64,000 bases of DNA from Rubricella aquisinus (GTDB taxonomy: Bacteria; Pseudomonadota; Alphaproteobacteria; Rhodobacterales; Rhodobacteraceae): positions 124,001-188,000 of the forward strand of contig NZ_JACIJS010000006.1 of the NCBI RefSeq assembly GCF_014199445.1. Reading direction: 5' to 3'. Positions 2,312 through 38,680 of this stretch are shown here, piece by piece. The translations under genes were made by a program, and so were the position numbers. Every line of letters begins with the position of its first letter. Position 1 is the stretch's first letter. The notes beneath the pieces were generated by a model. The model did not search any database. It was not told where the DNA came from and worked only from the letters and a program-made list of their open reading frames with translations.

Positions 2312-2922
2312 GTCTGTCCCTCCAGATTAAGTGCTGAGCCCTTCATCTGTTGCTTTCGCTAAGTGGCTAGGATGGCCTGTGATTCATGGGGTCTAAGCCC
2401 GGATGCGGAGGTTGGGAAAAGTGTTTCCAAAGATGGGCAAGTCTTTTCCAGATGACGAAGAGCGGAAGGTCGATCGATTAAAATTCCAAATCCCTCTCAG
2501 CAATCTGAGCGTTTCTTGCGGCATCCTTTGCCTTCAACGAAGGTCTGGCGATGCCATGGATTTGCCGCGCGGGTAATGGGCGGCTGTCACAGCTGGGAAT
2601 CACTACATCGCTCACTTTTCCCTCGATACGCCCCGACTTGATGCTGCTAATCTGGGCAGGCTGTCTAGTGGTGCATATAAATTGTGCATCGCAGCAAAAA
2701 CACGGCTCTGCGCTGCGCAATTTGCTTTGAGACTGGGCAGATCATCGGCCAGCCTTGCGGTGTCTTGAAACAGACATCAAACGCCGCGCGAGGGTCAATC
2801 CTGGCAGACCACCCCCCGCGCGACTGCAACATTCCTGCTGCAAGAGCAGTCTAGCATTGTGTGTAACCCTTGGAAACGCATGGCGGGCGGTCTTTTCGCA
2901 GCGATACGAGAGGATTTCCCCC
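2312..2922. other. Non-coding or unrecognised stretch upstream of urtA
   Basis: No gene could be supported here. An 80-codon TTG-started frame on the minus strand (2478-2720) has no recognisable motif or ribosome site. The last 200 bases should hold the urtA promoter. They include an inverted repeat GACTGC-N18-GCAGTC at 2822-2851 and a ribosome site GAGAGGA at 2908-2914 that sets the urtA start. The boundary between the decayed island and the core chromosome lies somewhere in this stretch. Confidence 0.4.
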
Positions 2923-4203: not shown

Positions 4204-4212
4204 TCGCCAACC

Positions 4213-4238
4213 GGGCCGCGCGGTTCACCGCGCGGCCC
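4213..4238 (+). promoter_or_regulatory. Intercistronic hairpin between urtA and urtB
   Basis: A perfect 11-bp stem (GGGCCGCGCGG, loop TTCA) begins 9 bases after the urtA stop. No T-run follows, so it is more likely an mRNA-stabilising or partial-termination element than a full terminator. Such elements raise the amount of binding protein over the permease. Confidence 0.7.
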
Positions 4239-4260
4239 ACCTCAATTTGAGAGTGCCCCC

Positions 4261-6210: not shown

Positions 6211-6261
6211 TGGGATGATATGTGTTCTACCGTTCCTCCCGTTCGCCGGGGGCGCAGACCC

Positions 6262-6330
6262 CGGATCGCGCCCGACCCGCCCCCCCGGGGCGGGCGCCAT
6301 GCGCCACCCCGCGGGCCGGTCGCGATCCTC
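6262..6330. repeat. GC-rich palindromic dispersed repeat, copy 1
   Basis: The gap between urtB and urtC holds CGCCCGACCCGCCCC, GGGGCGGGCGCCATGCGCC and a closing GGCCGGTCGCG arm. The same layout occurs at 45371-45434 between ureE and ureC. It can fold into a strong multi-armed hairpin. Confidence 0.5.
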
Positions 6331-6398
6331 TTCTTTCAGCCCGGAGCGTGAGCCAATCGCGCGAGACCCCGCCGCTGTATCAGATGCCGAGACCCCCC

Positions 6399-7565
6399 AT
6401 GCGTAAGACCTTCATCTCTCAAAACCCGTCCGTCCTGTGGTTCCTCGCAGCCCTTGGCCTGTTCACCCTGATCGTGACGATCCTGTCCGAAGGGTTCGGG
6501 CTTGGCATCGTTTCCACCTCCTTCATCAAGACGTTGGGCAAAACGCTGTGCCTGTGCCTTATCGCCATCGCGATGGATGTGGTCTGGGGCTATTGCGGTA
6601 TCCTCAGCCTTGGGCATTTCGCGTTTTTCGGCCTTGGCGGTTACGCCATCGGCATGTGGCTGATGTATGCGCGGACCGAAACGATTGTGGTCGAAAGCCT
6701 CGCTGGCAACATCATCCCTCCGACAGAGCAGGAGGTGATCGACGCCATCGGCACACAGATTTTCGGCGTCGTCGGCTCATCTGAATTCCCGCTGATCTGG
6801 GCCTTTGCCGATAGCCTTGTGCTGCAACTGCTGATGGTGGTTCTGGTGCCGGGACTGTTGGCGCTGGTGTTCGGCTGGCTCGCGTTTCGCAGCCGGGTGA
6901 CGGGCGTATATCTGTCAATCCTCACGCAGGCGATGACACTGGCGCTGGCGCTCTACCTGTTTCAAAACGACAGCGGTTTGCGCGGCAATAATGGCCTGTC
7001 GGGCTTGCAGAACATCCCCGGTTTTGAAGCGACCCCGCAGGCCACCATTTCCATCGTGTTTTTCTGGGCGTCGGCCTTTGCACTGTGCGCGGGCTATCTG
7101 TTTTTCGCGTGGATCGTGTCGGGTAAGCTGGGATCGGTCCTGCGCGCGATCCGCGATAATGAGGCGCGGGTGCGGTTTCTGGGCTACCATGTGGAAAGCT
7201 ATAAGCTGTTTGTCTTTACCATCACGGCGGTCGTGTCGGGGATCGCGGGCGCGCTTTATTATCCGCAAGCTGGCATCATCAACCCGGCGGAGATTGCGCC
7301 AATCGCCTCCATCTACCTCGCGGTTTGGGTCGCGATTGGCGGGCGGGGCCGGCTTTATGGCGCGGTGATCGGCGCGGCCTTTGTGTCGCTGCTGTCAAGC
7401 TGGTTCACGGGCGGCGGCGCACCGGATATTCCGCTTGGGTTTTACACGATCCAATGGACGGATTGGTGGCTGGTGCTGTTGGGCGTCAGTTTTGTCGCCG
7501 TAACGCTGTTCTTCCCGCAAGGCATCGGCGGTTTGTTCGACAAACTGGTGAGGAAGCAGCCATGA
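6399..7565 (+). CDS. urtC: Urea ABC transporter permease UrtC
   Basis: This 388-residue LivM-type permease is the second membrane subunit of the urea importer. It has about nine or ten membrane segments, from FLAALGLFTLIVTIL to the C-terminal WLVLLGVSFVAVTLFF. Family marks include CGILSLGHFAFFGLGGYAIGMW, shortened here to GILSLGHFAFFGLGGYA, and AIRDNEARVRFLGYHVE. The start at 6399 gives a normal length. An in-frame ATG at 6384 is also possible, and the open frame extends to 6222 through repeat-like sequence that is unlikely to be translated. The stop overlaps the urtD start (ATGA). Confidence 0.9.
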   Translation: MRKTFISQNPSVLWFLAALGLFTLIVTILSEGFGLGIVSTSFIKTLGKTLCLCLIAIAMDVVWGYCGILSLGHFAFFGLGGYAIGMWLMYARTETIVVESLAGNIIPPTEQEVIDAIGTQIFGVVGSSEFPLIWAFADSLVLQLLMVVLVPGLLALVFGWLAFRSRVTGVYLSILTQAMTLALALYLFQNDSGLRGNNGLSGLQNIPGFEATPQATISIVFFWASAFALCAGYLFFAWIVSGKLGSVLRAIRDNEARVRFLGYHVESYKLFVFTITAVVSGIAGALYYPQAGIINPAEIAPIASIYLAVWVAIGGRGRLYGAVIGAAFVSLLSSWFTGGGAPDIPLGFYTIQWTDWWLVLLGVSFVAVTLFFPQGIGGLFDKLVRKQP

Positions 7566-8305
7566 ACAACACGCTTCTTGAGGTTGATGGCGTGTCGGTC
7601 ACCTTCGACGGGTTTCGCGCCATCAACAACCTGTCGATCCAGATCGCGGAGCCGGAATTGCGCGCGATCATTGGCCCGAATGGCGCGGGCAAGACGACCT
7701 TCATGGATATCATCACGGGCAAGACACGCCCCGATGAAGGCAAGGTGATCTGGGGGGAGCGGAACATCTCCCTCCTCAAAATGTCCGAAAGCCAGATCGC
7801 ACAACAGGGCATTGGCCGAAAATTTCAGAAACCAACGGTGTTTGAGGCGCAGACAGTGCGCGAAAACCTCGCCATGGCACTCAAAAACAAACGCGGGCCG
7901 TTTGACGTGCTGTTTTTCCGCTCGAACCCCTCCATCGAGGGGGAGATTGTGGAACTGGCGGAGGAGATCGGCCTGCAAGACGCGCTCGACACGCCGTCCG
8001 GTATCTTGTCCCACGGGCAAAAGCAGTGGCTGGAGATTGGCATGTTGCTGGCGCAGGATCCGCGGCTTTTGCTCGTCGATGAACCGGCGGCGGGCATGAC
8101 GCAGGCCGAGCGGGAACAGACCACAGAAATCCTCGTGCGCGCGGCGCAGACCCGCGCCGTGGTGGTGGTGGAGCATGACATGGAATTTGTCCGGCGGCTG
8201 AATTGCAAGGTCACGGTGCTGCATGAGGGGTCCGTGCTGGCCGAAGGCTCCCTTGATCATGTGACCGCCAATCAGACGGTTATCGACGTGTATTTGGGGC
8301 GGTAG
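7562..8305 (+). CDS. urtD: Urea ABC transporter ATP-binding protein UrtD
   Basis: This 247-residue cytoplasmic ATPase powers urea import with UrtE. It shows Walker A GPNGAGKTT, the UrtD-type signature LSHGQKQWLEIG and Walker B LLLVDEPAAGMT. The switch histidine is in VVVEHDMEFV. The start overlaps the urtC stop by four bases, and the stop is 4 bases before urtE, so translation is probably coupled through the operon. Confidence 0.93.
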   Translation: MNNTLLEVDGVSVTFDGFRAINNLSIQIAEPELRAIIGPNGAGKTTFMDIITGKTRPDEGKVIWGERNISLLKMSESQIAQQGIGRKFQKPTVFEAQTVRENLAMALKNKRGPFDVLFFRSNPSIEGEIVELAEEIGLQDALDTPSGILSHGQKQWLEIGMLLAQDPRLLLVDEPAAGMTQAEREQTTEILVRAAQTRAVVVVEHDMEFVRRLNCKVTVLHEGSVLAEGSLDHVTANQTVIDVYLGR

Positions 8306-8309
8306 GGCG

Positions 8310-9005
8310 ATGCTGGAACTAGAAAACATCACTCTGAAATATGGGCAAAGCCAGATCCTCCATGGGATCAGCCTCACCGCCAAACCGGGGGAGGTGACGG
8401 CGATCATCGGCACCAATGGTGTGGGCAAAACCTCCCTGCTCAAGGCGATCTCAGGGCGGCACCCATATGCGGAAGGTCAGATGCGGCTGGATGGTGCGGT
8501 GCTGGACCATCCCACGGCGTTTCAGGCGGCGCGGGGCGGCATCGCTTATGTGCCACAAGGGCGCGAGGTGTTCCCGCTGATGACCGTGATGGAAAACTTA
8601 GAGACCGGGTTTGCCTGTCTCCACAAGGCGGACCGCACCATCCCCGAGCGCATTTTCGATCTGTTTCCCGTGCTGGCGGAAATGCGCCACCGGCGCGGTG
8701 GTGATCTGTCGGGGGGGCAGCAACAGCAGCTTGCCATTGCGCGCGCGCTGGTGTCCCGCCCGCGTGTCCTTTTGTTGGACGAACCGACCGAAGGCATCCA
8801 GCCCAACATCATCAAACAGATTGGCCGGGTGATCCACCAACTCCGCGACGAGGGAGAGATCGCGATCATTCTGGTCGAGCAGTATTTCGACTTTGCCTAT
8901 GATCTTGCCGCGCAATTCTATGTGCTGAACCGCGGCGAGGTGCGGTTGAATGGCGCCAAATCGGACCTGGGGCGGGAGCGGCTGTTGGAGAGTTTCGCGC
9001 TCTGA
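8310..9005 (+). CDS. urtE: Urea ABC transporter ATP-binding protein UrtE
   Basis: This 231-residue protein is the second ATPase of the urea importer. It has Walker A GTNGVGKTS, signature LSGGQQQQLAIARAL, Walker B VLLLDEPTEGIQPNI and the switch histidine replaced by Q in ILVEQYFDFA, as is normal for LivF/UrtE proteins. It is the last gene of the urt operon. About 160 bases without a recognised terminator separate it from the next gene. Confidence 0.93.
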   Translation: MLELENITLKYGQSQILHGISLTAKPGEVTAIIGTNGVGKTSLLKAISGRHPYAEGQMRLDGAVLDHPTAFQAARGGIAYVPQGREVFPLMTVMENLETGFACLHKADRTIPERIFDLFPVLAEMRHRRGGDLSGGQQQQLAIARALVSRPRVLLLDEPTEGIQPNIIKQIGRVIHQLRDEGEIAIILVEQYFDFAYDLAAQFYVLNRGEVRLNGAKSDLGRERLLESFAL

Positions 9006-12595: not shown

Positions 12596-12630
12596 GTCCC
12601 CACGATACCGGCACAAACACGGGAAAGCAC

Positions 12631-12645
12631 TTACCTCACAGGTAA
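12631..12645. promoter_or_regulatory. Candidate operator of the MmyB-type regulator
   Basis: TTACCT-CAC-AGGTAA is a perfect 6-3-6 inverted repeat located between the divergent regulator (start 12595) and the membrane protein gene (start 12707). The position fits an operator for both promoters. The assignment to this regulator is inferred. Confidence 0.55.
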
Positions 12646-12706
12646 TTGTTTTGCGTCTGTCAGACCGGCAGATCGGTCCCTGAATTCAAATCAAGGAGAC
12701 CAGATC

Positions 12707-13129
12707 ATGACCCTTCACCTTCGTGTGCGACTGCTCAAGACGTTCAGCATCCTTTACCTGATTGGTCCGGGCCTTTTGATGGTGCTGGCCGAACTGCTGC
12801 CGGTCATGGGGGCGGTGTCGGCCTTTCTTGATCTGGCCTATTGGCCCTATGACGGGGCGCAGGTCGTCGCCGGGGATGTGGCGACGCTGTTCAATGCGAT
12901 TCTCGGTGGTGTCTTGATCGGGTTTGGTGTCCTGATCCATGAGGTGGGGTCCAAGGTGTATGCTAAGGACGAGCCGCTGGGCCGTCGCATCCTGCTGACG
13001 GGCTTGTTTGCGTGGTATCTGACGGACAGCTTTGCCTCTGCCGTGACGGGGGCGCCATTCAACGCAGTGATGAACACGTTTTTCGCCGGGTGTTTCATCG
13101 TGACGCTTCTGTGGCCTGCACGGACCTGA
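12707..13129 (+). CDS. Small membrane protein, four predicted helices
   Basis: This 140-residue integral membrane protein has helices at about residues 8-28, 52-75, 88-108 and 116-136. The start at 12707 follows a strong AAGGAG site. Similar small proteins (DoxX/DUF-type) are often the single target of MmyB-type regulators, but I do not recognise a named family. The gene is divergent from the regulator and followed by a strong hairpin, so it is probably transcribed alone. Function is unknown. Confidence 0.7.
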   Translation: MTLHLRVRLLKTFSILYLIGPGLLMVLAELLPVMGAVSAFLDLAYWPYDGAQVVAGDVATLFNAILGGVLIGFGVLIHEVGSKVYAKDEPLGRRILLTGLFAWYLTDSFASAVTGAPFNAVMNTFFAGCFIVTLLWPART

Positions 13130-13148
13130 CACGCCCTTTGCCCTCGGA

Positions 13149-13170
13149 TCGGCGGAGACCCCTCCGCCGA
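13149..13170 (+). terminator. Hairpin downstream of the small membrane protein gene
   Basis: TCGGCGGAG-ACCC-CTCCGCCGA forms a perfect 9-bp stem 19 bases after the stop. There is no clear T-run, so termination is likely but not certain. It separates this gene from the seven-gene operon. Confidence 0.5.
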
Positions 13171-13266
13171 CAGCCGCTTGCAAAAATCGACGGCCAGCCG
13201 GATTAAAGGTTTGACCCATCAAGCGCCCGCTTGCACGATCCCCAAGGGACGTTTCAGGGAGCAGTG

Positions 13267-14259
13267 ATGGACCATATTCCACCTTTGCGCATTGACGGGC
13301 TGCAATACGCCAATTGGTCAGAAAAGATCTTTGGCCAGTTGCGCGCAGGCGGCGTGGACGCGATCCACGTCACCATCGCCTATCATGAGAGCTTTCGCGA
13401 AACCGTGCTGAATTTTGAGCGGTGGAACCGCTGGTTCGAGCAATATCCCGATCTAATCATGAAAGGGCTGTGGGCCAGCGATATCGACCGCGCGCGGACA
13501 ACGGGGCGCACGGCGGTGTTCTTTGGCTTTCAGAACCCCAGCCCGATGGAGGATGACATTGGGCTGATCGAGATTTTGCACACGCTCGGCGCGCGGTTCA
13601 TGCAGCTTACCTATAACAACCAATCCCTGCTCGCGACCGGATGTTATGAGGAGTATGACGCGGGCATCACCCGGATGGGGCGGCAGGTCATCGCGGAGAT
13701 GAACCGCGTGGGGCTCGTGATCGACATGAGCCATTCGGGCGACCGCTCCACCATCGAGGCGGCGGAGATGTCGACCCGCCCCATCACGATCACCCATGCA
13801 AACCCCCATGCGTGGCACCCAGCGTTGCGCAACAAGCGCGATGAGGTGATCCGCGCGGTCACATCGCGCGGCGGGATGCTCGGCTTCTCGCTCTATCCCC
13901 ATCACCTGAAGGGCGGCACGGCCTGCACGCTGGAAAGTTTCTGCCAGATGATCGCGGATGCGGCAGCCGCCTATGGCGCGGATCGGCTCGGCATCGGCAC
14001 GGACCTGTGTCAGGATCAGCCCGACAGCGTGGTCGAGTGGATGCGCGTGGGCCGCTGGAGCAAGCAGATCGACTATGGCGAAGGCTCCGCCGCCATGCCC
14101 GGCTTTCCCCCCATGCCAAGCTGGTTTCAGGACAATCGCGATTTCGGAACGATAGAGCAGGGCCTGCGCGATGTTGGCATGACCGACCATGAGGTCGCGG
14201 GCATCATGGGCGGCAACTGGTATCGCTTCTTTGCCGAGAATTTCGGGGGGCAGCCATGA
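13267..14259 (+). CDS. M19 membrane-dipeptidase-like protein with altered metal site
   Basis: This 330-residue protein is related to M19 (renal dipeptidase) enzymes. MSHSGDRSTIEAAE and ITHANPHAW carry the two later metal histidines, and LTYNNQSLLATG and RLGIGTDLCQDQP fit the family. The N-terminal HxD motif of normal members is replaced by L-Q-Y (IDGLQYANW, residues 9-17). The usual bridging glutamate is replaced by Gln in FGFQNPSP. A standard binuclear zinc peptidase is therefore unlikely. The start at 13267 follows AGGGAG. It is the first gene of a seven-gene operon, and its stop overlaps the next start (ATGA). A substrate cannot be named. Confidence 0.75.
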   Translation: MDHIPPLRIDGLQYANWSEKIFGQLRAGGVDAIHVTIAYHESFRETVLNFERWNRWFEQYPDLIMKGLWASDIDRARTTGRTAVFFGFQNPSPMEDDIGLIEILHTLGARFMQLTYNNQSLLATGCYEEYDAGITRMGRQVIAEMNRVGLVIDMSHSGDRSTIEAAEMSTRPITITHANPHAWHPALRNKRDEVIRAVTSRGGMLGFSLYPHHLKGGTACTLESFCQMIADAAAAYGADRLGIGTDLCQDQPDSVVEWMRVGRWSKQIDYGEGSAAMPGFPPMPSWFQDNRDFGTIEQGLRDVGMTDHEVAGIMGGNWYRFFAENFGGQP

Positions 14260-15929
14260 TCCCCGCACTCGATCAGATCACCCGCCGCGCGCCCGCGCAG
14301 GTGATGCGGCTCAAACGGTTGGGATCGTTTCACCAATCGCGGCTGAGTTTCATGCGCATTCTGACCCGGCGCATGGCGGGGGAGGGCTGGCACTTCACGC
14401 GCGCCGCGTGGGAGGTGGATGCCGAAGGCGTCGGCCATGCCGTCTATACCGCCCAGGGGCCGGAGCGGAGCTATTCGCTGGTTGCCTTTGCCCATGACCT
14501 GCCCGCCGATCAACGATCCGACCGGGTCATTGCCGAGGCGTGGGACGCGACATTCGCCCTTTTCGACGGGGTGCCGGGGGCGGAGGATATCGCGCGGCTC
14601 CGCGATAACGTCCCAGTGCAGGAGGCGGGCCGCGTCACGGCGCGGGAGTTGACCCTGTCGCGCGCAAACCGGTCGGTCCGGCTTTGGTCCCATGTGGTCG
14701 ATGCGCTGGCGCAGGGCGATCAGCCCGACGCGGCGGAGATCGACAAGGTGGGCTATCTGATGCGCACCACCGCCGTTTACGGATCGGGCAAATTCGGCGC
14801 AGCGGATCGGGAGATGATCGCCACTCGGCCCGAAATGGAAACCCCGTTTCAGGCAGAGATGCTGACGGTCTATCTCATCCGTACCTTCGTGCGCGATCTG
14901 GTCGAGCATATGGCTCGTATGCAGGGCGGTGACGGCGCGGTGCAGCTTGATCCGGCCCTTGCCCGGCGGCTCGGCATCGGGAATTCCACCGGGCTTGGCA
15001 TGGCGCCCTTCATCGTCAACCATCCGGTTTTGTTCAACAACTGGATCATGGCGCGGGAGGAGGCCATCGCGCGGGTGCGCGCCGTCGCCACTCCAACAGC
15101 GGAGGAAATCCGGCAATTTCGCACCGTGCTGGAGGCAAGCGCCGTGAGTATCGGCAATTGGACCTCCGCGCATCCTCTCCAGCAGGAAAAGCTCCACGCG
15201 CTGGGCGATGATCTGGCGGCCCTGCAGGCCTGTGTGGCCGCGATGGACCTGACGCGTGATCATCCGTGGCACCGTTTGGTCACTTGGGGGGAGGCTGCGA
15301 TGAGCGAGGAGGGGCAGGAATTGCTCTGCTCCCTGATCCTTGAACCCTACGGCACGCTCGTGGACGGATTGGCCTGCTGCATGGCCGATCCCCATGGCAG
15401 CCGCCAACCGATTGATGGGGCGATGACGGTCGCGGCGGTCCGAACCCTCCTGGAGGACGCATTCGGCTGGGCGCTACCGCTCGATTGGTCGGAGCAAGAG
15501 GCGTGTGCACGGGCATGGTATGTGTCCGAGGAAAAGCTCGAACCCCGCCTTGGGGAGCGGTTTGAAGAGCCGGTCGCGGAATATGAACAGCCCCTTGCCC
15601 CCGCGCGCGACGCGGCGATGGCCTATCGCGCCTTGACGGAATGGGAAGCAGAAGCGCCCATCGCGCCATTTCTGTTGGCCCATCCCGAGCATCGCCACAC
15701 CATCCGCCGCGCGCAGATAGCCGCCCGCGCGCCCTATGGCGAAATCCGCGACAACACCATCGCGGCCGATATGCTGCCCATCGACATGCTGCGTGCGAAA
15801 CTGTCTTTCTTTGGCGCGACACGGTTTGATCCCCGCTCCGACCGCTGGGTCCGCATTTCGATGTTTTCTGGCGCGCCTTATCCCGAGGCTCTGTCTCCGG
15901 AGACGGCGGATTTCTGGGTCTATCCTTGA
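14256..15929 (+). CDS. Uncharacterised 557-residue protein of the catabolic operon
   Basis: I do not recognise a functional domain. The protein is soluble, with no signal peptide or membrane segment. Sequence marks that could define the family include AVYGSGKFGAADREMI, ETPFQAEMLTVYLIRTF, NSTGLGMAPFIVNHP and LSFFGATRFDPRSDRWV. Its aromatic- and acid-rich character and position inside a catabolic operon suggest an enzyme or assembly factor acting on the same substrate as its neighbours. It starts four bases inside the M19-like gene and ends four bases inside the DUF3726 gene, so the three are probably translated together. Confidence 0.75.
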   Translation: MIPALDQITRRAPAQVMRLKRLGSFHQSRLSFMRILTRRMAGEGWHFTRAAWEVDAEGVGHAVYTAQGPERSYSLVAFAHDLPADQRSDRVIAEAWDATFALFDGVPGAEDIARLRDNVPVQEAGRVTARELTLSRANRSVRLWSHVVDALAQGDQPDAAEIDKVGYLMRTTAVYGSGKFGAADREMIATRPEMETPFQAEMLTVYLIRTFVRDLVEHMARMQGGDGAVQLDPALARRLGIGNSTGLGMAPFIVNHPVLFNNWIMAREEAIARVRAVATPTAEEIRQFRTVLEASAVSIGNWTSAHPLQQEKLHALGDDLAALQACVAAMDLTRDHPWHRLVTWGEAAMSEEGQELLCSLILEPYGTLVDGLACCMADPHGSRQPIDGAMTVAAVRTLLEDAFGWALPLDWSEQEACARAWYVSEEKLEPRLGERFEEPVAEYEQPLAPARDAAMAYRALTEWEAEAPIAPFLLAHPEHRHTIRRAQIAARAPYGEIRDNTIAADMLPIDMLRAKLSFFGATRFDPRSDRWVRISMFSGAPYPEALSPETADFWVYP

Positions 15930-16555
15930 GCCTCCGCGTGATCCTGTCCCTCAACGAAGTGGACGCAACCGCGAAAAAGGCGGCGCGCGGCGCGGGCTAT
16001 CCATGGGGGCTGGCGGAGGAGGCGGCGCGCGCGACCCGTTGGCTCTGTGCGCAGGGGCAGGACGGGTGCGGCGCGTTGGCAGGCCTTTTATGCATCACGG
16101 ATAGCCAGGTGGATGCGTTTGCCCCGGCGCGCAGCGGAACCGGATGGGTCGGTGACGGCCCCGTGTGCCCGATCCAGATGGGCGCGGCCCTTGCCGATTT
16201 TGCCTCCGATCTTAAGGCCGGGCCGGTGCATGTCCCGCCTGTGCGCGCACCGCGCCTGCTGCTGCCGTTTTTGGCGGTGATTGCGGAAATTATGGAAACG
16301 TCGGTTGAGGCCAATTGGAACAGTGGCACGGTTACGGTGGCGCAAGGCGCGGAAATGATGGGTGACCTGCCCGATCCATGCCGCCTCACGCTGTCCCTCA
16401 CTGCCGCCGCAATCCCGTCGCGCGCGGTCCTCCGCGTCGTTCCCAAACCAGAGGATTGGGCCATGCTCACGACCTTTGCCCATCGCACATACGCCCCGGC
16501 AACAGCCGCCTCCCGGTTGAAAGGGGCGGGCGCGGGACTTTCGGACAATGATTAG
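15926..16555 (+). CDS. DUF3726 family protein
   Basis: This 209-residue protein carries the family's N-terminal signature SLNEVDATAKKAARGAG followed by WGLAEEAARATRWL. Function is unknown for the whole family. The start is taken as TTG 15926, overlapping the previous stop (TTGA); GTG 15938 is an alternative that still keeps the signature. It is encoded between the 557-residue unknown and an Ldh2-type dehydrogenase. This conserved companionship implies a role in the same pathway, perhaps as an enzyme subunit; that is inference. Confidence 0.75.
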   Translation: MSLRVILSLNEVDATAKKAARGAGYPWGLAEEAARATRWLCAQGQDGCGALAGLLCITDSQVDAFAPARSGTGWVGDGPVCPIQMGAALADFASDLKAGPVHVPPVRAPRLLLPFLAVIAEIMETSVEANWNSGTVTVAQGAEMMGDLPDPCRLTLSLTAAAIPSRAVLRVVPKPEDWAMLTTFAHRTYAPATAASRLKGAGAGLSDND

Positions 16556-16567
16556 GATGAGGACATA

Positions 16568-17578
16568 ATGCAGACAGAAACGCTCACTCTGGCGGAGATC
16601 GAAGAGATCGCCTTCGCCGCGCTGACAGCCGCTGGCACCTCGCCGGAAAACGCGCACCCCTTGGCCAAAGCCACGGCAGAGACGGAGGCCGATGGCGTCG
16701 CCAGCCATGGCCTCGCCTATATCCCGATCTATTGTGAGCATGTGCGCTGCGGTAAAGTGGATGGGCAGGCCACACCCGTGATCGCCAAGCCGCGCCCGGC
16801 CTTCCTGACGGCGGATGCCGCGACAGGTTTTGCCCATGCGGCGATTGATGCGGGTTTTGCACAGCTGTTCCCTTTGGCGCGGGAGATGGGCGTGGCGGGC
16901 CTGTCGATCCGCAACAGCTATAATTGTGGGGTTCTGGGCTGTCACACACGGCGCATGGCGGAGGCGGGCTTGATCGGGCTGGGCTTCACGAATGCGCCGG
17001 CCTCCATCGCGCCCTCGGGCGGGGCAAAGCCCGTTGTGGGGACCAACCCCTTTTCCATCGCGGTGCCGGGGGAGGATGGCAAACCGGCGCTGTTGATCGA
17101 CCAGAGCGCCAGCACCATCGCCAAGAGCGAAGTGATGAAACACGCCCGCGAAGGCCGCCCGATCCCTGAAGGCTGGGCGCTGGATGCCGATGGCAACCCG
17201 ACGACCGATCCGGCGGTGGGGCTGAAAGGCTCCATGGCCCCCTCAGGCGGGTATAAGGGCGTGGGTGTGGCGCTGATGGTTGAGGTGCTCGCAGCCGCCC
17301 TGTCCGGGGCGCATCTGGGCATTCAGGCCTCCCCCTTTTCCGGCACGGCAGGCGGGCCGCCGCGCACCGGGCAGTTTTTCCTTGCGATTGATCCAAGTGC
17401 CGGGGATGGCGCGGCGACGGCAGTGCGGATTTCCCAGCTTGTCGCGGCGATCCGCGATCAGGAGGGCGCACACCTGCCGGGTGACGGGCGGGCGGCGGCG
17501 CGCGCGCGGGCCGAGGTCAGCGGCGTTGCGGTGAACACGGCGACGCTGGATAAAATCCGCGCGATTATAGAGGGTTAG
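16568..17578 (+). CDS. Ldh2/MDH2-family NAD(P)H-dependent reductase
   Basis: This 336-residue oxidoreductase belongs to the family of malate/lactate dehydrogenase type 2, sulfolactate dehydrogenase and pyrroline/piperideine-2-carboxylate reductase. The catalytic histidine lies in ADGVASHGLAYIP. The cofactor-binding region includes GFTNAPASIAPSGGAKP and GTNPFSIAVPG, and the C-terminal part has the typical GYKGVGVALMVEVLAAALSG. Members reduce either 2-keto acids or cyclic imino acids, and the sequence alone does not decide which. With an ammonia-lyase next door, reduction of an imine or keto acid product is plausible. It starts 12 bases after the DUF3726 stop. Confidence 0.85.
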   Translation: MQTETLTLAEIEEIAFAALTAAGTSPENAHPLAKATAETEADGVASHGLAYIPIYCEHVRCGKVDGQATPVIAKPRPAFLTADAATGFAHAAIDAGFAQLFPLAREMGVAGLSIRNSYNCGVLGCHTRRMAEAGLIGLGFTNAPASIAPSGGAKPVVGTNPFSIAVPGEDGKPALLIDQSASTIAKSEVMKHAREGRPIPEGWALDADGNPTTDPAVGLKGSMAPSGGYKGVGVALMVEVLAAALSGAHLGIQASPFSGTAGGPPRTGQFFLAIDPSAGDGAATAVRISQLVAAIRDQEGAHLPGDGRAAARARAEVSGVAVNTATLDKIRAIIEG

Positions 17579-17580
17579 AA

Positions 17581-18630
17581 ATGGTTGTTGATATTTTGCA
17601 GAATCCGTGGCGGGGCAAGGGTATTCCGGGTCTTGGCCCGATGCCTGCTGATGACCCTGCCCCTGTTTTGGCATTGCTAGACCAGTGTCCGGCCCATGCG
17701 CAGACCCCGCTGGTGCGGGCCGATACGCTCGCCCACGAGGCCGGTATCGCCCAGCTTTGGATCAAGGATGAGCGGGGCCGGATGGGTCTGGGCAGTTTTA
17801 AGGCGCTGGGGGCGGCTTATGTCATCGCGCGCGACGCCGCTGCCGCCGGTGGCCCGTGGGAGACGGCGCTGACCGGTGCGACTTACGTCACCGCGAGTGC
17901 CGGAAACCACGGCATGTCCGTCGCGGCAGGCGCGCGACTGTTTGGCGCGCAGGCGGTCGTCTATATCGCGCAAACCGTACCAGACAGTTTCGCGGAGCGG
18001 CTGCGCGCCATGGGCGCGCGCGTGGTCCGTGAGGGGCCGACTTACGAGGACAGCATGGAGGCCGCGGAAAAAGCCGCGCGTGATGAGGGGATGCGCCTTT
18101 TGTCCGACGGATCATGGCCCGGTTATACCGATCCGCCCTATCATGTGATGGAGGGATATCTGAACCTCGCGGCAGAGGCCGTGGCACAGATGGACGCCCC
18201 GCCGACCCATATCCTGCTTCAAGCGGGCGTCGGAGGGCTGGCCGCTGCGGTCGCGGCACATGCGCGGCGGGCATGGGGGGATGGCCCGACCATCATCGTG
18301 GTGGAGCCAGAGGCCGCTCCCGCCCTGATCGAAAGCATCCGCGCGGGCCGGATCGTGGAAACCGAAGGGCCCGTCTCCTCCATGGGGCGGCTTGATTGCA
18401 AGGTGCCGTCGATGATCGCGCTGGCCGGATTGGCGCGGGATGCGGATGCCTTCGTGACCATCAGCGAAGCAGAGGCGGCAGAAGGCTGCGTGACCCTCGC
18501 CGCGCATGGAATGCCGACCTCCCCCTCGGGCGGGGCGGGGTTGTGCGCGCTGTTGAGCGGGGGGACGGGCATCGCGCCGGACGCGCGCGTGCTGTGCATC
18601 ATGAGCGAAGGGATGACCGAGGGTGACTGA
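17581..18630 (+). CDS. PLP-dependent ammonia-lyase, diaminopropionate ammonia-lyase-like
   Basis: This 349-residue fold-type II PLP enzyme has its lysine in GLGSFKALGAAYV, preceded by IKDERGRMG. This is the pattern of 2,3-diaminopropionate ammonia-lyases rather than threonine dehydratases. Further marks are YVTASAGNHGMSVA, DGSWPGYTDPPYHVMEGY and the phosphate-binding loop LQAGVGGLAAAV. The expected chemistry is beta-elimination of ammonia or water from an amino acid, giving a 2-keto acid. It starts 2 bases after the Ldh2-type gene, and its end overlaps the M24 gene by 8 bases. The exact substrate is not established. Confidence 0.82.
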   Translation: MVVDILQNPWRGKGIPGLGPMPADDPAPVLALLDQCPAHAQTPLVRADTLAHEAGIAQLWIKDERGRMGLGSFKALGAAYVIARDAAAAGGPWETALTGATYVTASAGNHGMSVAAGARLFGAQAVVYIAQTVPDSFAERLRAMGARVVREGPTYEDSMEAAEKAARDEGMRLLSDGSWPGYTDPPYHVMEGYLNLAAEAVAQMDAPPTHILLQAGVGGLAAAVAAHARRAWGDGPTIIVVEPEAAPALIESIRAGRIVETEGPVSSMGRLDCKVPSMIALAGLARDADAFVTISEAEAAEGCVTLAAHGMPTSPSGGAGLCALLSGGTGIAPDARVLCIMSEGMTEGD

Positions 18631-19789
18631 CCGCTCCCTCATCTTTCCGCGCGCCGAATACGCCGCGCGGATCGCTGCCTTTCAGGCGCGGATGGCGCGG
18701 GCAGGGGCGGATGCGCTGCTTCTCACCAGCCCGGCGGATGTGTTCTATACCACTGGGTTCCTCACCCGGTTTTGGGAAAGCCCGGCGCGACCATGGTTTA
18801 TCGTGATCCCGGTAGAAGGCGCGCCGGTGGCCGTGATCCCGTCCATCGGGGCCGATCTGATGGGGCGCACATGGCTGGAGGATATCCGCACATGGGACGC
18901 ACCCGATCCGGTGGATGATGGGGTGTCGCTGCTCGCAGAGACGCTCTCGGCACTTGTGCCGGACAGGGGCAGGATCGCGCTGCCCATGGGGCTGGAGACG
19001 CATTTGCGCATGCCAGTGCGGGATTTTGAGCGAGTCAGGGCCGCGCTGTCGCCCCGCACGTTTGTCGATGGCACTGATGTTGTTCAGCGCGTGCGGGAGG
19101 TGAAATCAGAGGCGGAGATCGCAAAAATCCGCGCGACCTGCGGCATTGCGGATCGCGCCTTTGCCCGTGTGGCGGAATTTGCCGCTGCTGGCGCGACGCT
19201 CGCCCATGTCTTTCGCGCGTTCCAGATCACGCTCTTGGAGGAGGGTGCGGATTGGGTCAGCTATGTCGCGGCTGGTGCCGGGCAGGGCGGCTATGGCGAT
19301 GTGATCTCCCCCGCGGGGCCAGAGCCGCTGTTGCGTGGGGATGTGCTGATGCTCGACACGGGCGCGGTGCGAGACGGGTATTTCTGCGATTTCGACCGCA
19401 ATTTTTCTGTTGGGCCAGCCAATGACAGAGTGCGACGCGCGCATGAGGCGCTGGTTAGCGCTGTGGCCGATACCGCGCGCGATCTGCGGCCCGGAATGCG
19501 GGCCCGGGATGTGCATCGGCTGCTCTGCGCGGGGCTGACAGCGCGAGAGCAGATGCCCTGTGGTGGGCGGCTCGGGCATGGGCTGGGGATCACGCTCACC
19601 GAATGGCCGTCCTTCACGCCGAAGGATGACACGACCCTGCGCGCGGGCATGGTGCTGACGCTGGAGCCGGGCGTTGACCTTGGGCGAGGGCGGATCATGG
19701 TCCATGAGGAAAACATCGTGCTGCGCGAGGGTGGGGCGGAGTTTCTCTCCACCCCCGCGCCGCCCGATCTGCCGGAGCTGTCTGGATGA
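18623..19789 (+). CDS. M24-family metallopeptidase-like hydrolase (Xaa-Pro peptidase / ectoine hydrolase-like)
   Basis: This 388-residue protein has a creatinase-type N-terminal domain and a C-terminal pita-bread domain. All five metal ligands are visible: Asp245 and Asp256 (LDTGAVRDGYFCDFDRNF), His in GGRLGHGLGI, Glu in LTLEPGV and Glu in MVHEENI. Since creatinase itself lacks these metals, a metal-dependent amidohydrolase or peptidase is more likely. In ectoine degradation a related enzyme (DoeA/EutD) opens a cyclic amidine next to an EutA-like protein, the same pairing as here. The start is GTG 18623, within the previous gene. Confidence 0.8.
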   Translation: MTDRSLIFPRAEYAARIAAFQARMARAGADALLLTSPADVFYTTGFLTRFWESPARPWFIVIPVEGAPVAVIPSIGADLMGRTWLEDIRTWDAPDPVDDGVSLLAETLSALVPDRGRIALPMGLETHLRMPVRDFERVRAALSPRTFVDGTDVVQRVREVKSEAEIAKIRATCGIADRAFARVAEFAAAGATLAHVFRAFQITLLEEGADWVSYVAAGAGQGGYGDVISPAGPEPLLRGDVLMLDTGAVRDGYFCDFDRNFSVGPANDRVRRAHEALVSAVADTARDLRPGMRARDVHRLLCAGLTAREQMPCGGRLGHGLGITLTEWPSFTPKDDTTLRAGMVLTLEPGVDLGRGRIMVHEENIVLREGGAEFLSTPAPPDLPELSG

Positions 19790-20520
19790 GCCATCACCCC
19801 TACAAACTGACAGAGCGGCACAGCGCCACGCTTGGCCTGATCGTGTTGCAGGTAGATGAGACCATCGAGCAGGATTTCCGGCGGATGGTGCCGGATGAGG
19901 TTGCGCTCTATGTCACCCGCATCCCGTCCGGCGCGGAACTGACACCCGATACGATTGCGCAGATGGCCGTGGATTTGCCCGCCGCCGCGCGCCTTTTGCC
20001 CCCGGCGGTGAGGTTCGACGCGATTGGCTATGCCTGCACCTCCGGCACGACGCTGATCGGGGTGGAGCGGGTCGCGTCGCTTGTGACAGCTACCGCGCAG
20101 ACCCGCCATGTGGCCAATCCACTGACCGCCAGCATCAATGCGCTGCGTGCCGTGACGGCCCGGCGCATCGCCATCGTCTCCCCCTATATTGCCAGTGTGG
20201 CAGAGCCGATCCGGGATGCCTTTACCAGCGCCGGGTTTGAGGTGCGGCACACCGTCAGCTTTGGCGAGGAGGTGGAGGCGCATGTCGCCCGCATTGATCC
20301 CGCGTCGATCATGGAGGCCGCGCATGCGGCCTGCGCCGGGGGGGAGGTTGACGCGGTGTTCCTGTCCTGCACCAATCTGCGCACGCTTGATATCATCGCA
20401 CCGCTTGAGGCCGCTTTGGGCATCCCCGTGATCAGCAGCAATCTTGCACTGGCATGGGATATGGCGCGGCTGGCGGGGACGGACCTTATTGCACCGGGGC
20501 GGTTGGTCAGGGGCGTTTGA
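19786..20520 (+). CDS. Maleate isomerase / arylmalonate decarboxylase / EutA-like protein
   Basis: This 244-residue Asp/Glu-racemase superfamily member has both active-site cysteines of maleate isomerases: Cys84 in YACTSGTTLIG and Cys195 in FLSCTNLRTL. GIPVISSNLALAWDM is also typical. EutA of ectoine utilisation belongs to this group. It is the last gene of the seven-gene operon and starts four bases inside the M24 gene. Its 3' end overlaps the convergent oxyR gene by 14 bases. Confidence 0.8.
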   Translation: MSHHPYKLTERHSATLGLIVLQVDETIEQDFRRMVPDEVALYVTRIPSGAELTPDTIAQMAVDLPAAARLLPPAVRFDAIGYACTSGTTLIGVERVASLVTATAQTRHVANPLTASINALRAVTARRIAIVSPYIASVAEPIRDAFTSAGFEVRHTVSFGEEVEAHVARIDPASIMEAAHAACAGGEVDAVFLSCTNLRTLDIIAPLEAALGIPVISSNLALAWDMARLAGTDLIAPGRLVRGV

Positions 20521-21388
20521 GCGCGGTCGCGATATCCTTCAGCGTTGGGCCAAGCGGGTTTGCCTTGCGCCAGACCATGCCGATGCTGCGCCCCGGTTGC
20601 GGATCGGCAAGGCGAGAGATCGCCACATCGGCGGAGCGGGTTTCCACCGACACGGCCATCTCCGGGATCAGGGTCACCCCGATGCCCGAGCTGACCATCT
20701 GCACGAGGGTGGATAGGGAGCTTGCATCCAGCATGTCCCGCGTCGTGGTGCCACCAAGGGCGCAGAAAGACAGCGCCTGATCCCGAAAACAATGCCCTTC
20801 CTCCAGCAGCAAAAGGCGCATCGCGGGCAGGTCTTCGGCGCGGGGCACCGGCGCGTTTGCCTGCGCCTTGGGCCGGACGAGCATGAAGGCTTCGGAAAAC
20901 AGCTCCATCTCCGTCAAGGTCGGCTCTGAGGTGGGAAGGGCGACAATCGCCATGTCGATCCGCCCCTCTTTCAGTGCGCTGATCAGGGTCGGTGTGATGG
21001 TTTCGCGGATTTTGATATCGAGCGCGGGATACATCCGGCTGAGCGTGGTGATGACCGACGGCAAAAGATAGGGCGCCACCGTCGGGATCACCCCGATCCG
21101 GAGCCGCCCGGCAAGCCCCCCTGCCGCGTTGCGCGCCATGTCCCCCAACTCATCCACTGCGCGCAGGATATCGCGCGCGCGGGCGGCGGTTTCCTCCCCT
21201 ACGGGGGTGAGTCGCACCGTGCGGCTGCCGCGCTCCACCAGCGTGACGCCAAGCGTTTCTTCCAGTTCGCGGATCTGCATCGACAAAGCCGGTTGCGAAA
21301 CGAAACTGGCCTCCGCCGCACGTCCGAAATGACCGTGATGGGCCAAAGCCTCGAAATACCTGAGTTGTCTTAGGGTTAGTTGATTCAT
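20507..21388 (-). CDS. oxyR: Hydrogen-peroxide sensing LysR regulator OxyR
   Basis: This 293-residue LysR-type regulator has an N-terminal winged helix-turn-helix (FGRAAEASFVSQPALSMQI). Its two redox cysteines, Cys200 and Cys209, lie in LEEGHCFRDQALSFCALGG, nine residues apart as in OxyR. Peroxide forms a disulfide that turns it into an activator. It is divergent from katG across 135 bases, the classical arrangement for controlling that gene. Its 3' end overlaps the end of the racemase-like gene. Confidence 0.93.
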   Translation of the reverse strand: MNQLTLRQLRYFEALAHHGHFGRAAEASFVSQPALSMQIRELEETLGVTLVERGSRTVRLTPVGEETAARARDILRAVDELGDMARNAAGGLAGRLRIGVIPTVAPYLLPSVITTLSRMYPALDIKIRETITPTLISALKEGRIDMAIVALPTSEPTLTEMELFSEAFMLVRPKAQANAPVPRAEDLPAMRLLLLEEGHCFRDQALSFCALGGTTTRDMLDASSLSTLVQMVSSGIGVTLIPEMAVSVETRSADVAISRLADPQPGRSIGMVWRKANPLGPTLKDIATALKRP

Positions 21389-23737
<2,349 letters not shown>

Positions 23738-23933: not shown

Positions 23934-24809
23934 GTGAGCATTACTCTCCTTGATGGTGGGATGGGGCAGGAGCTTGTCCGCCGCAGCAGCGCAGCTCCCA
24001 CGCCGCTTTGGGCAACGGAGGCGCTGTTGCACGCGCCCGATCTGGTGGCGGAGGTGCACGCCGATTTCTTTGCCGCTGGTGCGCAGATCGCCACGACCAA
24101 CACCTATGCCGTCCACCGCGACCGGCTCGCCCCTGCTGGGATCGAAGGGCGGTTTGAGGATTTGCAGCGTGCCGCCTGCGAAATCGCGGTGCGCGTGCGT
24201 GATGCGCATGGCTCGGGCCTGATTGCGGGCGGGGTTGGCCCGCTGAAAGGCTCCTACCGCCCTGATCTGGCGCTGCCGGTGGCTGAGGCGGCGTATCTTT
24301 TCGGGGAGGTCGCGGCGATTCAGGCTGACTATGTCGATGTATTCCTCATCGAGACGGCGTCGTCGGTGTTGGAGGCAGAGGGGGCGCTGACGGGGCTGCT
24401 GCCCGCCGGAAAGCCCGTGTGGCTGTCCGTGTCGGTCGGGGATGCGGATGGCACGCGCCTGCGCTCCGGTGAGCCGGTGGAGGCGATCTTGCCATTGGTT
24501 GAGGCCATGGGGCCAGCGGCCCTCCTGATCAACTGCACCCGTCCAGAGGCCGTGACGCAGGGCGTGGCCCGATTGTCGGGGGCGAGCGTGCCGCTTGGCG
24601 CTTATGCCAACGGGTTCACCCGGATTGACGAGGCGTTCCTCGATACCCAAGCGACGGTGGATGCGCTGTCCGCACGGACCGATCTGACGCCAGCCGCCTA
24701 TGCCGATCATGCTGCGGATTGGATCGCCCTTGGCGCGTCGATCATTGGTGGCTGTTGCGAGGTGGGTCCGGCCCATATCGCGGAACTGAAATCCCGATTT
24801 GGAGCCTGA
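23934..24809 (+). CDS. Homocysteine S-methyltransferase family protein
   Basis: This 291-residue protein has the zinc-dependent methyltransferase fold. The ligand cysteines are in INCTRPEAV and GGCCEVGPAHI, and the N-terminus reads LLDGGMGQELVRR. Members move a methyl group from S-methylmethionine, betaine or similar donors to homocysteine. The GTG start at 23934 follows AAAGGA. It is two bases upstream of a dimethylglycine/sarcosine dehydrogenase-like gene. The pair suggests methylated-amine or betaine breakdown feeding one-carbon units; the donor is not proven. Confidence 0.85.
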   Translation: MSITLLDGGMGQELVRRSSAAPTPLWATEALLHAPDLVAEVHADFFAAGAQIATTNTYAVHRDRLAPAGIEGRFEDLQRAACEIAVRVRDAHGSGLIAGGVGPLKGSYRPDLALPVAEAAYLFGEVAAIQADYVDVFLIETASSVLEAEGALTGLLPAGKPVWLSVSVGDADGTRLRSGEPVEAILPLVEAMGPAALLINCTRPEAVTQGVARLSGASVPLGAYANGFTRIDEAFLDTQATVDALSARTDLTPAAYADHAADWIALGASIIGGCCEVGPAHIAELKSRFGA

Positions 24810-24811
24810 CC

Positions 24812-27253
24812 ATGACCCCTCCCTCCCATGCGCGCGCTGTGATCATCGGGGGTGGGGTTTCGGGCTGTTCGGTTGCGTATCACTTGTCGAAACTCGGTTG
24901 GACCGATATTGTCCTGCTGGAGCGCAAGCGGCTGACCTCCGGCACCACATGGCACGCGGCGGGCCTGATCGGGCAGCTGCGCGCCAATCAGAATATGACC
25001 CGGCTCGCGAAATACTCCGCCGACCTCTACACCAAGCTGGAGGATGAGACCGGCATCGCCACGGGGATGCGGCAAAACGGGTCGATGACCGTGGCATTGA
25101 CGGCACATCGCTGGGAGGAGGTCCGCCGTCAGGCCACGCTCGCCCATAGCTTCGGGGTGGAGGCAGAGGTGATCGGCCCTTCGGAGGTCAAATCGCTCCA
25201 TCCCCATGTGATGACGCGCGACGTGATCGGCGGCGTTTATCTGCCCCATGACGGCCAATGCGATCCGGCCAATATCGCGATGGCCCTCGCCAAAGGTGCG
25301 CGGATGCGGGGTGCGCGCATCCTGGAAGGGATCAAGGTCACGGCTGTTGACGATAATGGGCAGGCGGTCACGGGCGTTCATTGGGAAAGCTCTGAGGGAT
25401 CGGGCCATATCGCCACCGATGTGGTGATCAATTGCGGCGGCATGTGGGGCCGCGATCTGGCCGCACAATCGGGCGTGACGCTGCCGCTCCATGCGTGTGA
25501 GCATTTCTATCTGGTGACTGAACCCGTCGCGGGCCTGAGCCAGCTCCCGGTGCTGCGCGTGCCGGATGAACACGCCTATTTCAAGGAAGACGCGGGCAAG
25601 ATGCTCCTTGGCGCGTTTGAACCTAAGGCAAAACCATGGGGCATGGGCGGCATTCCCGAGGATTTCGAATTTGACAGCCTGCCGGAAGATTTCGCGCATT
25701 TCGAACCCATCCTGGAACGCGCGATGCGCCGGATGCCGCTGTTTGAGTCGGCAGGTATTCATACCTTTTTCAACGGGCCGGAAAGTTTCACGCCCGATGA
25801 CCGCTATTATCTGGGCGAAGCGCCTGATCTGCGCGGCTATTGGGTTGCGGCTGGGTATAATTCGATCGGGATCGTGTCCTCCGGCGGGGCCGGTATGGCG
25901 CTCGCGCAATGGATCCATGACGGGGAGCCGCCCTTTGATCTCTGGGACGTGGATATTCGCCGCGCCCAGCCCTTCCAGCGCAACCGCCGCTATCTGAAAG
26001 AGCGGGTGAGCGAGACGCTTGGCCTGCTCTACGCCGATCATTACCCCTACCGTCAGCCCGAAACGGCGCGCGGTGTACGCCGCTCCCCGGTCCATGCGCT
26101 GCTCAGCGCGCGCGGCGCGGTGTTTGGTGAGACCGCAGGATGGGAGCGTGCGAACTGGTTTGCCAAGGACGGTCAGGACCGGGAATACCGCTATGACTGG
26201 AAAGGGCAAAACTGGTTTGAGAATCAGCGCGCCGAACATCTGGCCGTGCGCGAACAGGTGGGCCTCTTCGATCTGTCCTCCTTTGGCAAGATCCGGGTCG
26301 AGGGGCGGGATGCCAGCGCGTTCTTGCAGATGATGTGCGGCAATGATGTGGATGTGCCTGCCGGGCGGCTCGTCTACACGCAGATGCTCAACGCGCGCGG
26401 CGGCATAGAGTGCGACCTGACGGTGACCCGCCTGACAGAGACGGCGTTTTTGCTGGTGGTGCCCGCAGCCACGGTTCAGCGGGATCTGGCATGGTTGCGG
26501 CGGCATATTGGCGAGCGGTTCGTCGTCGTGACGGACATGACGGCGGCAGAAGCCACCTTTGCGGTGATGGGGCCACGCGCGCGCGATTTGATGCAGGCGG
26601 TCAGCCCAGATGATTTCGGCAACAGCGCGCATCCCTTTGGCACCGCTCGGGAAATTGAGGTCGGTATGGGCCTCGCCCGTGCGCATCGTGTGTCTTATGT
26701 GGGCGAATTGGGGTGGGAGCTTTATGTCAGCGCCGATCAATCCGTGCATGTGTTTGAGACCCTGTTGCAGGCGGGGGCGGAATTCGGCCTGAAACTCTGT
26801 GGTCTTCATGCGCTCGACAGTTGCCGGATCGAGAAGTGATTTCGGCATTTCGGCCATGACATCACCGATGAGGATCATGTGCTGGAAGCGGGGCTGGGCT
26901 TTGCCGTGAAGCCAGATAAGGGGTCATTTATTGGGCGTGACGCGGTGCTGCGCAAAAAGGAGGGGGGACTGGCCCGCCGCCTCGTGCAATTCCAACTCTC
27001 CGATCCTGCGGCGATGGTGTTTCATAATGAGGGGATTTTGCGGGACGGCGCGCGCGTGGGCATCGTCACCTCCGGCAATTATGGCCACACGCTCGGCGCT
27101 GGCATCGCGATGGGATATGTGCCCTGCGCGGGAGAGACAGCCGTGCAGGTGCTGGCGTCACGCTATGAGATAGAGATCGCAGGGGAGCGGGTGCCGGCCA
27201 CGCCAAGCCTAACCCCGCTTTACGATCCGACCCACGTGCGGATGCGGGCCTGA
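24812..27253 (+). pseudogene. Dimethylglycine/sarcosine dehydrogenase-like FAD-GcvT protein, interrupted by one TGA
   Basis: The frame runs 814 codons with a single in-frame TGA at 26837-26839. The first part has FAD-binding VIIGGGVSGCSVAYHL, the flavin-linking His motif GTTWHAAGLIG and the start of the aminomethyltransferase (GcvT) domain. After SCRIEK the TGA stands where homologues have a small residue, and FRHFGHDITDEDH continues in the same frame to the normal C-terminus at 27253. Ribosomes would stop after 675 residues, losing about 137 residues of the GcvT C-terminal part. A truncated protein may keep dehydrogenase activity. A sequencing error or recent nonsense mutation are the simplest explanations. 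Confidence 0.85.
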
Positions 27254-38577: not shown

Positions 38578-38680
38578 CTGTTGAGAGGTTGGCGCGGGCG
38601 AGCGCCTCGCCAACCCGGTCAGATCCGGAAGGAAGCAGCCGTAACGAGTCCCGTTCGGGTCGTTGTCCAGCCTCTCACCC
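38578..38680 (+). ncRNA. ffs: Signal recognition particle RNA (4.5S type)
   Basis: The stretch carries the universal SRP RNA apical loop GGTCAGATCCGGAAGGAAGC followed by AGCCGTAACGAG, and a closing stem GAGAGGTTGG/CCAGCCTCTC at 38583-38592 and 38667-38676. The RNA binds Ffh to target membrane proteins. It precedes a hydrolase gene and dnaX, the usual alphaproteobacterial neighbourhood. Confidence 0.93.

Follow-up and report, generated by a model that had tools for sequence, protein, structure and literature searches.

We analyzed a stretch of 64,000 nucleotides (nt) from Rubricella aquisinus, which is related to the marine roseobacters (Rhodobacteraceae; contig NZ_JACIJS010000006.1, positions 124,001 to 188,000), referred to here as the window, and within it an operon of seven open reading frames (ORFs), called A to G, that follow one another in the same direction on the + strand, at window positions 13267-20520. 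Comparison with related genomes indicates that this operon is composed of two separately travelling modules, ABCD and EFG, which have different distributions. The window presents a new arrangement, in which a probably known core is combined with a cassette to which no function has been assigned.

The genes overlap by 4 nt at the A-B, B-C and F-G junctions and by 8 nt at E-F, and are separated by gaps of 12 nt at C-D and 2 nt at D-E. An earlier reading made from the sequence alone (the sequence-only reading) had described seven co-directional genes that overlap or lie at most 12 bases apart. This layout is borne out, and the accompanying claim that the genes form one operon is supported; we infer that A to G are transcribed as one unit. 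Scans of positions 12600-21600 found promoter-like sites (2, versus 1.5 expected, none upstream of A) and terminator-like sites (5, versus 6.3 expected) at chance level. For A we adopted the ATG at 13267, an internal start of the mechanically defined TTG ORF at 13231-14259, as it matches the position at which orthologues begin (MRIDGLQYANW).

Proteins encoded by the seven genes

A (13267-14259) matches Peptidase_M19 (PF01244, 227 bits), and its nearest solved structure is 2i5g, labeled 'amidohydrolase' (218.5 bits). The earlier description of A as M19-like is thus right as to the family, but the protein is a non-canonical, amidohydrolase-type homologue that lacks a glutamate present in M19 dipeptidases. 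The bridging Glu in the 'GIEG' motif of GliJ dipeptidases, which we take to have a role in metal binding, is aligned with the Gln of 'GFQN' in A, and this Gln is kept in all 14 aligned sequences, that of the window included. Because of this change, we consider it doubtful that A performs ordinary dipeptide breakdown. A literature search found no paper that pairs a membrane dipeptidase with Ruegeria pomeroyi.

B (14256-15929) encodes a protein of 557 residues from an orphan family that matches no Pfam or NCBIfam model, and it is probably the key enzyme of the ABCD module. Its AlphaFold model scores 82.6 in the predicted local distance difference test (pLDDT) and has a predicted template modeling score (pTM) of 0.84. 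Fold searches with the whole protein, its domains not being searched separately, gave no convincing match (best Foldseek E-value 0.11; best VIA Z score 4.6). There are argininosuccinate-lyase entries among the weak matches, which we do not believe. A profile comparison of B with A found no similarity.

C (15926-16555) matches DUF3726 (PF12525, 69.9 bits). Several weak but agreeing lines of evidence suggest that it is probably a shortened relative of the Ldh2 family. With a model of C (pLDDT 85.6), Foldseek ranks 1 to 26 are all Ldh2-family chains, at E-values of 1.4e-3 to 0.1 and probabilities of 0.80-1.00, i.e., none with an E-value of 0.001 or below. A distant C protein, at locus L123, matches both DUF3726 (42.7 bits) and, just under the cut-off of 38.8 bits, Ldh_2 (36.2 bits); another, at L122, matches DUF3726 only. 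An hhalign comparison of C with D gave an E-value of 3e-4 over 118 columns, with a probability of just 39.7%, and a narrower alignment gave 4e-4 and 34.0% over 45 columns. We found no paper that mentions DUF3726.

D (16568-17578) is a predicted Ldh2-type NAD(P)H imine/keto-acid reductase (Ldh_2, PF02615, 318.7 bits). Its nearest solved structure is 1wtj, a delta1-piperideine-2-carboxylate reductase of the DpkA type (198 bits; the next structure scores 142 bits), and C resembles a shortened form of the same fold. According to passages of PMC6110843, the native substrate of a DpkA-type reductase is piperideine-2-carboxylate, and the enzyme makes N-methyl amino acids. The similarity to 1wtj agrees with the earlier proposal of an imine/keto-acid reductase that acts in the breakdown of a cyclic or N-blocked amino-acid-like substrate.

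E (17581-18630), the first gene of the second module, encodes a PALP enzyme (PF00291). Its closest family is 2,3-diaminopropionate ammonia-lyase, to which the nearest solved structures (5ygr and 4d9g) belong, but its score against NF006058 (254.8 bits) lies under the equivalog cut-off of 276. The lysine motif of the lyases is kept: Lys74, in GLGSFKALGA, aligns with the motif GLNAFKGLGG and is presumably the lysine that binds pyridoxal phosphate (PLP).

F (18623-19789) encodes an M24 metallohydrolase (Creatinase_N and M24; PF01321 and PF00557) whose nearest solved structures are Xaa-Pro peptidases. When F is aligned with these enzymes, it retains their Asp, Asp, His, Glu and Glu positions, which we assume to be the metal ligands. 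In comparisons with DoeA chains, the score is about 60 bits.

G (19786-20520) encodes a protein of the EutA, arylmalonate decarboxylase and maleate isomerase type (Amdase/Asp_Glu_race), and arylmalonate decarboxylase is its nearest solved structure. All three arylmalonate decarboxylase chains shown have a Cys at the position of Cys195, and one has a Cys at that of Cys84; both are residues that we presume to be catalytic.

Distribution and joining of the two modules

We searched a family sample of 295 genomes and a phylum sample of 299 genomes, which includes the window's own genome and family members. In the family sample, B was found in 134 genomes, but two of these matches (G260 and G009; E-values of about 5e-4 to 9e-4) were dropped, and co-occurrence counts used the remaining 132. 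In the phylum sample, B was found in 22 genomes, eight of them from another class. The loci of this class that we examined (L121-L127), being of the same phylum but another class, are presumably from Gammaproteobacteria.

Neighborhoods were studied with gene maps of 63 loci, the window included, followed by a recount at fixed thresholds over the 64 B loci flanked by 4.5 kb or more on either side, near-duplicates included. Names given below to ProX, ProW, ProV, RidA, SoxB, SoxD and SoxG, where outside the family scans, were assigned by eye or by cluster membership. The usual core comprises genes for a LysR regulator and an aldehyde dehydrogenase (ALDH), together with A, B and C, frequently D, and a transporter of the BCCT or ProXWV type. 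A accompanies B in 59 of the 64 loci; for C the count is 49, which the threshold makes too low; ALDH was found in 43, LysR in 41, D in 27 and RidA in 11; transporters were of the BCCT class, in two types (15 and 10 loci), or were ProX and ProW (7 and 8 loci). The one BCCT protein that we tested was nearest to glycine-betaine/choline BCCT models, below their cut-offs. The seven other-class loci have ALDH, A, BCCT, B and a relative of C, most of them LysR, and some RidA; the gene order LysR-ALDH-A-BCCT-B-C is thus also found outside the window's class.

The best model match of the ALDH is alpha-ketoglutaric semialdehyde dehydrogenase, at 478 bits (cut-off 770). Orthologues (at least 62% identity) are present in 58 of the 295 genomes, all 58 of which also carry B. 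We regarded matches of 47-56% identity as paralogues, a cut that we set after the gap between 56% and 62% had been seen.

There are also divergent relatives of B (31-34% identity), at L083, L084 and L120, that lie beside other types of ABC transporter. M19-like genes are present in L083 and L120, and RidA-like and IclR-like genes were recognized by label or by eye. These loci raise the possibility that A and B work as a pair on several substrates.

EFG has a different distribution. Counting only matches with E-values of at most 1e-70, E is present in 116 and F in 147 of the 295 family genomes, and E and F are adjacent in 98 of the 116. Around E in 20 further loci chosen for this gene, F adjoins in 19, and both F and G in 15, and no other gene is constant; EFG is therefore a unit of its own. 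A gene for an Lrp/AsnC-type regulator lies beside EFG in three loci (L152-L154), for which the family scan was run on L152 only. EFG is common in genomes without B (40 of 116), and near B it is rare, with E in 2, F in 5 and G in 4 of the 64 loci. We propose that EFG releases nitrogen from some amino-acid-like compound. No paper that gives EFG a function was found in our literature search, which yielded only the ectoine paper PMC3187862.

All seven genes are contiguous in only four of the genomes examined, in three layouts: ABCD-EFG in the window, EFG-ABCD (L082) and divergent GFE-ABCD (L167 and L168). The sequence-only reading had proposed that the seven genes are one conserved, undescribed pathway, and this does not hold, since they fall into two modules. 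Its related expectation of co-occurrence was right in that the genes do occur together elsewhere, but they do so mostly as separate modules.

The modules were joined at least twice, as judged from the layouts and from the tree described below. Of the 76 genomes that hold both E and B, 5 carry them no more than 15 kb apart, versus 0.6 expected, and there are four adjacencies versus 0.04 expected; for two independent joins, P is 8e-4. This chance estimate ignores selection for co-regulation. In a tree of 71 B proteins, made by a quick method and leaving out the near-duplicates L032, L049, L057 and L074, the seven-gene label requires 3 changes, of which 2 are forced by well-supported branches, and the B protein of the window is nested among relatives of the ALDH type. 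When labels were shuffled on this tree, the seven-gene label was as clustered as observed in 36 of 500 shuffles, and it is therefore neither clearly clustered nor clearly scattered. We also calculated odds ratios for the co-occurrence of B with E (4.2) and with F (7.7), but these are confounded by kinship and we do not use them as support.

The ALDH orthologue is absent from all four seven-gene genomes, compared with its presence in 56 of the 92 genomes that carry a close B, i.e., one of at least 55% identity (P = 0.021). However, 36 of these 92 genomes have no ALDH orthologue. In 32 of the 36, B has no E gene closer than 15 kb, although draft contigs may hide some, and 12 have no E anywhere; ALDH is therefore dispensable for other reasons. 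Over all genomes, E and ALDH showed no significant tendency to exclude each other (Fisher P = 0.14). In the window operon, EFG would either be a second pathway that is co-regulated with ABCD or stand in for the ALDH reaction.

Candidate substrates

The gene content, the modularity, the repeated joining and the absence of an ALDH orthologue were read from sequences, while the substrate and every reaction given here are proposals. Our preferred reading, in which we have moderate confidence, is that ABCD forms the core of a pathway in which the ring of an N-methylated pyridine-2-carboxylate, most likely homarine (N-methylpicolinate), is opened. B, with its orphan fold, and C, as a shortened Ldh2 relative, would attack and open the ring, and A would cleave a C-N or N-formyl bond as an amidohydrolase-type enzyme. 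Ring carbon 6 would be lost, leaving a five-carbon semialdehyde, on which the alpha-ketoglutarate-semialdehyde-type ALDH would, in most relatives, form the second carboxylate, and D would reduce an N-methyl imine. The expected product of ABCD, most likely N-methylglutamate, would enter N-methylglutamate dehydrogenase (MgdABCD), which would convert it to glutamate and a one-carbon unit. In the window, EFG (a predicted PLP lyase, M24 metallohydrolase and two-Cys racemase/isomerase) is joined to ABCD at a locus that has none of the usual ALDH, LysR and betaine-type transporter genes.

Our first hint of homarine was the operon name homABCDER, and we take R. pomeroyi to be the model organism of work on homarine. 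One strain, R. pomeroyi SZCCDBG043, has the order LysR-ALDH-A-B-C-D-BCCT (L031), which establishes presence only. A homarine pathway was reportedly described in 2026 (Ferrer-Gonzalez et al., Nat Microbiol 11:1531), and ABCD is probably its core. Another paper places tmaR, a gene of the AraC type, upstream of mgdABCD in R. pomeroyi and says that Mgd takes part in homarine catabolism (PMC13390433), and a third lists homarine among the compounds with no confirmed transporter in this organism as of 2022 (PMC9723723). The passages of other papers that our search returned contained no homarine gene tags, and no paper was found that combines two of the homarine-pathway terms. In Marivivens (L057 and L037, from the same genome), a SoxBDAG-type operon lies directly beside LysR-ALDH-A-B-C-D-ProXWV, and the same is seen at L038. 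On the far side of SoxBDAG in L057, the sole locus long enough to show it, is a DJ-1/AraC-type regulator, and the whole may be regarded as resembling the setting of mgdABCD. The sequence-only reading had allowed that the operon might already be assigned to a known substrate; for the ABCD half this is likely, with homarine as the substrate, but not proven.

It is important to consider the observations that weigh against homarine. The link to SoxBDAG was seen in only two distinct genomes. The SoxA of Marivivens has sarcosine oxidase as its nearest solved structure, so that its identity as Mgd is not proven, and in the window genome both SoxBDAG-type sets, as tested with SoxA and SoxB, score above the cut-offs of sarcosine-oxidase subfamily models. 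B has no identifiable cofactor or fold, and the ring-opening step is therefore a guess. The reductase D was not detected in 37 of the 64 B loci or in any of the seven other-class loci, and it is therefore not a fixed part of the module. Compared with the cluster of R. pomeroyi, the window locus has EFG instead of ALDH, LysR and transporter: the best match to ALDH in the window genome is only 35% identical, and no LysR of the cluster type or betaine-type transporter is adjacent, the sole LysR at the locus being of the OxyR type (29% identity to the cluster LysR). The window genome may therefore not run the same pathway.

Three other explanations were considered. ABCD might degrade some other betaine-like compound by the same logic, e.g., trigonelline, a betaine of pipecolate or of proline, or some further N-methylated osmolyte, which seems to us improbable. 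The betaine-type transporters and the N-methyl-imine-type reductase would fit any such zwitterion, but the C5 semialdehyde-type ALDH and the SoxBDAG/AraC neighborhood best fit a route to N-methylglutamate. A literature search on trigonelline found nothing relevant. We give somewhat more weight, while still thinking it unlikely, to the possibility that the seven genes are one pathway for another N-substituted cyclic amino acid, in which EFG chemically replaces the ALDH step. The lack of an ALDH orthologue in all four seven-gene genomes and the joining in at least two lineages, with adjacencies far above chance, are in its favor. However, that chance estimate takes no account of selection for co-regulation, more than a third of the close-B genomes have neither ALDH nor, in most cases, a nearby E, EFG often occurs without B, and E and ALDH do not significantly avoid each other. 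Moreover, two loci (L065 and L076) keep ALDH in their ABCD clusters despite a diverged F-G pair (about 50% identical) nearby. A related and comparably tentative idea is that EFG has repeatedly replaced ALDH, giving a second, so far undescribed route with its lyase, metallohydrolase and racemase handling the ring-opened product or another N-methylated cyclic substrate, and that B would be a ring-opener of new fold with a degenerate Ldh2 partner, DUF3726.

For EFG itself, an origin as a diverged ectoine or hydroxyectoine module is very improbable. E, F and G are distant relatives of EutB, EutD/DoeA and EutA in the eutABCDE and doeABXCD systems, and the Lrp/AsnC-type neighbor of EFG recalls DoeX, which passages of PMC3187862 place beside doeAB. 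Against this, scores with the Eut models are far below their cut-offs (79.7 versus 413 bits for E, 59.5 or, in a second scan, 58.7 versus 613 for F, and 170.1 versus 318, with TIGR02990, for G), and we reject the ectoine reading of these genes on this basis. The families to which EutC and EutE would belong are not represented among the seven proteins, and F is closer to Xaa-Pro peptidases. Within the window genome, F is also far surpassed as a match by an M24 gene of much closer EutD/DoeA type (L173, G000 C1:151575-152726), which scores 550 bits (cut-off 613). The view that the operon does not serve ectoine breakdown, already taken in the sequence-only reading, is thereby strengthened. The M24 gene at L173 adjoins, as seen by eye, a glutamine-synthetase-like gene and a TetR-like regulator gene.

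Flanking genes and significance

Upstream of A are genes that look, from their translations and by eye, like a urea-type (Urt) ABC transporter set (2755-9005; a substrate-binding protein, two permeases and two ATPases), and a gene for a helix-turn-helix/MmyB-type regulator. Downstream, an OxyR-like gene (20507-21388) is convergent on G and is followed by a KatG-like gene. We do not count any of these flanking genes as part of the operon. OxyR was considered as the regulator of the operon but was not adopted, because it adjoins KatG and, among NCBIfam models, fits OxyR best (248.5 bits, cut-off 329). The OxyR-KatG pair (20507-23737 in the window) also adjoins ABCD in L056 and EFG in L144, i.e., it is present in 3 of 93 loci, the window included; at a fourth locus, L071, KatG is present without that OxyR. 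These placements possibly reflect chance, or peroxide produced by the pathway.

Elsewhere in the window, a homocysteine S-methyltransferase gene and then a gene for a dimethylglycine dehydrogenase-type protein with DAO, FAO_M and GCV_T matches (23934-26839) point to more methylated-amine metabolism nearby. Two RNA matches were found with Rfam: the bacterial signal recognition particle RNA (38583-38679), and 5_ureB_sRNA (46713-47000; 111.6 bits, gathering threshold 40), a family that derives from Helicobacter; the latter match is probably just conserved ureB coding sequence.

If ABCD is indeed the core of homarine breakdown, this would give a role to DUF3726 and to a 557-residue family with no recognized fold, and it would reveal the reach of the pathway. 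In all four observed cases, EFG was joined to ABCD in a genome that lacks ALDH, and such repeated joining suggests a variant of the route whose substrate can be tested directly. EFG itself is common, as shown by the adjacency of E and F in most of the E-bearing genomes of the family sample.

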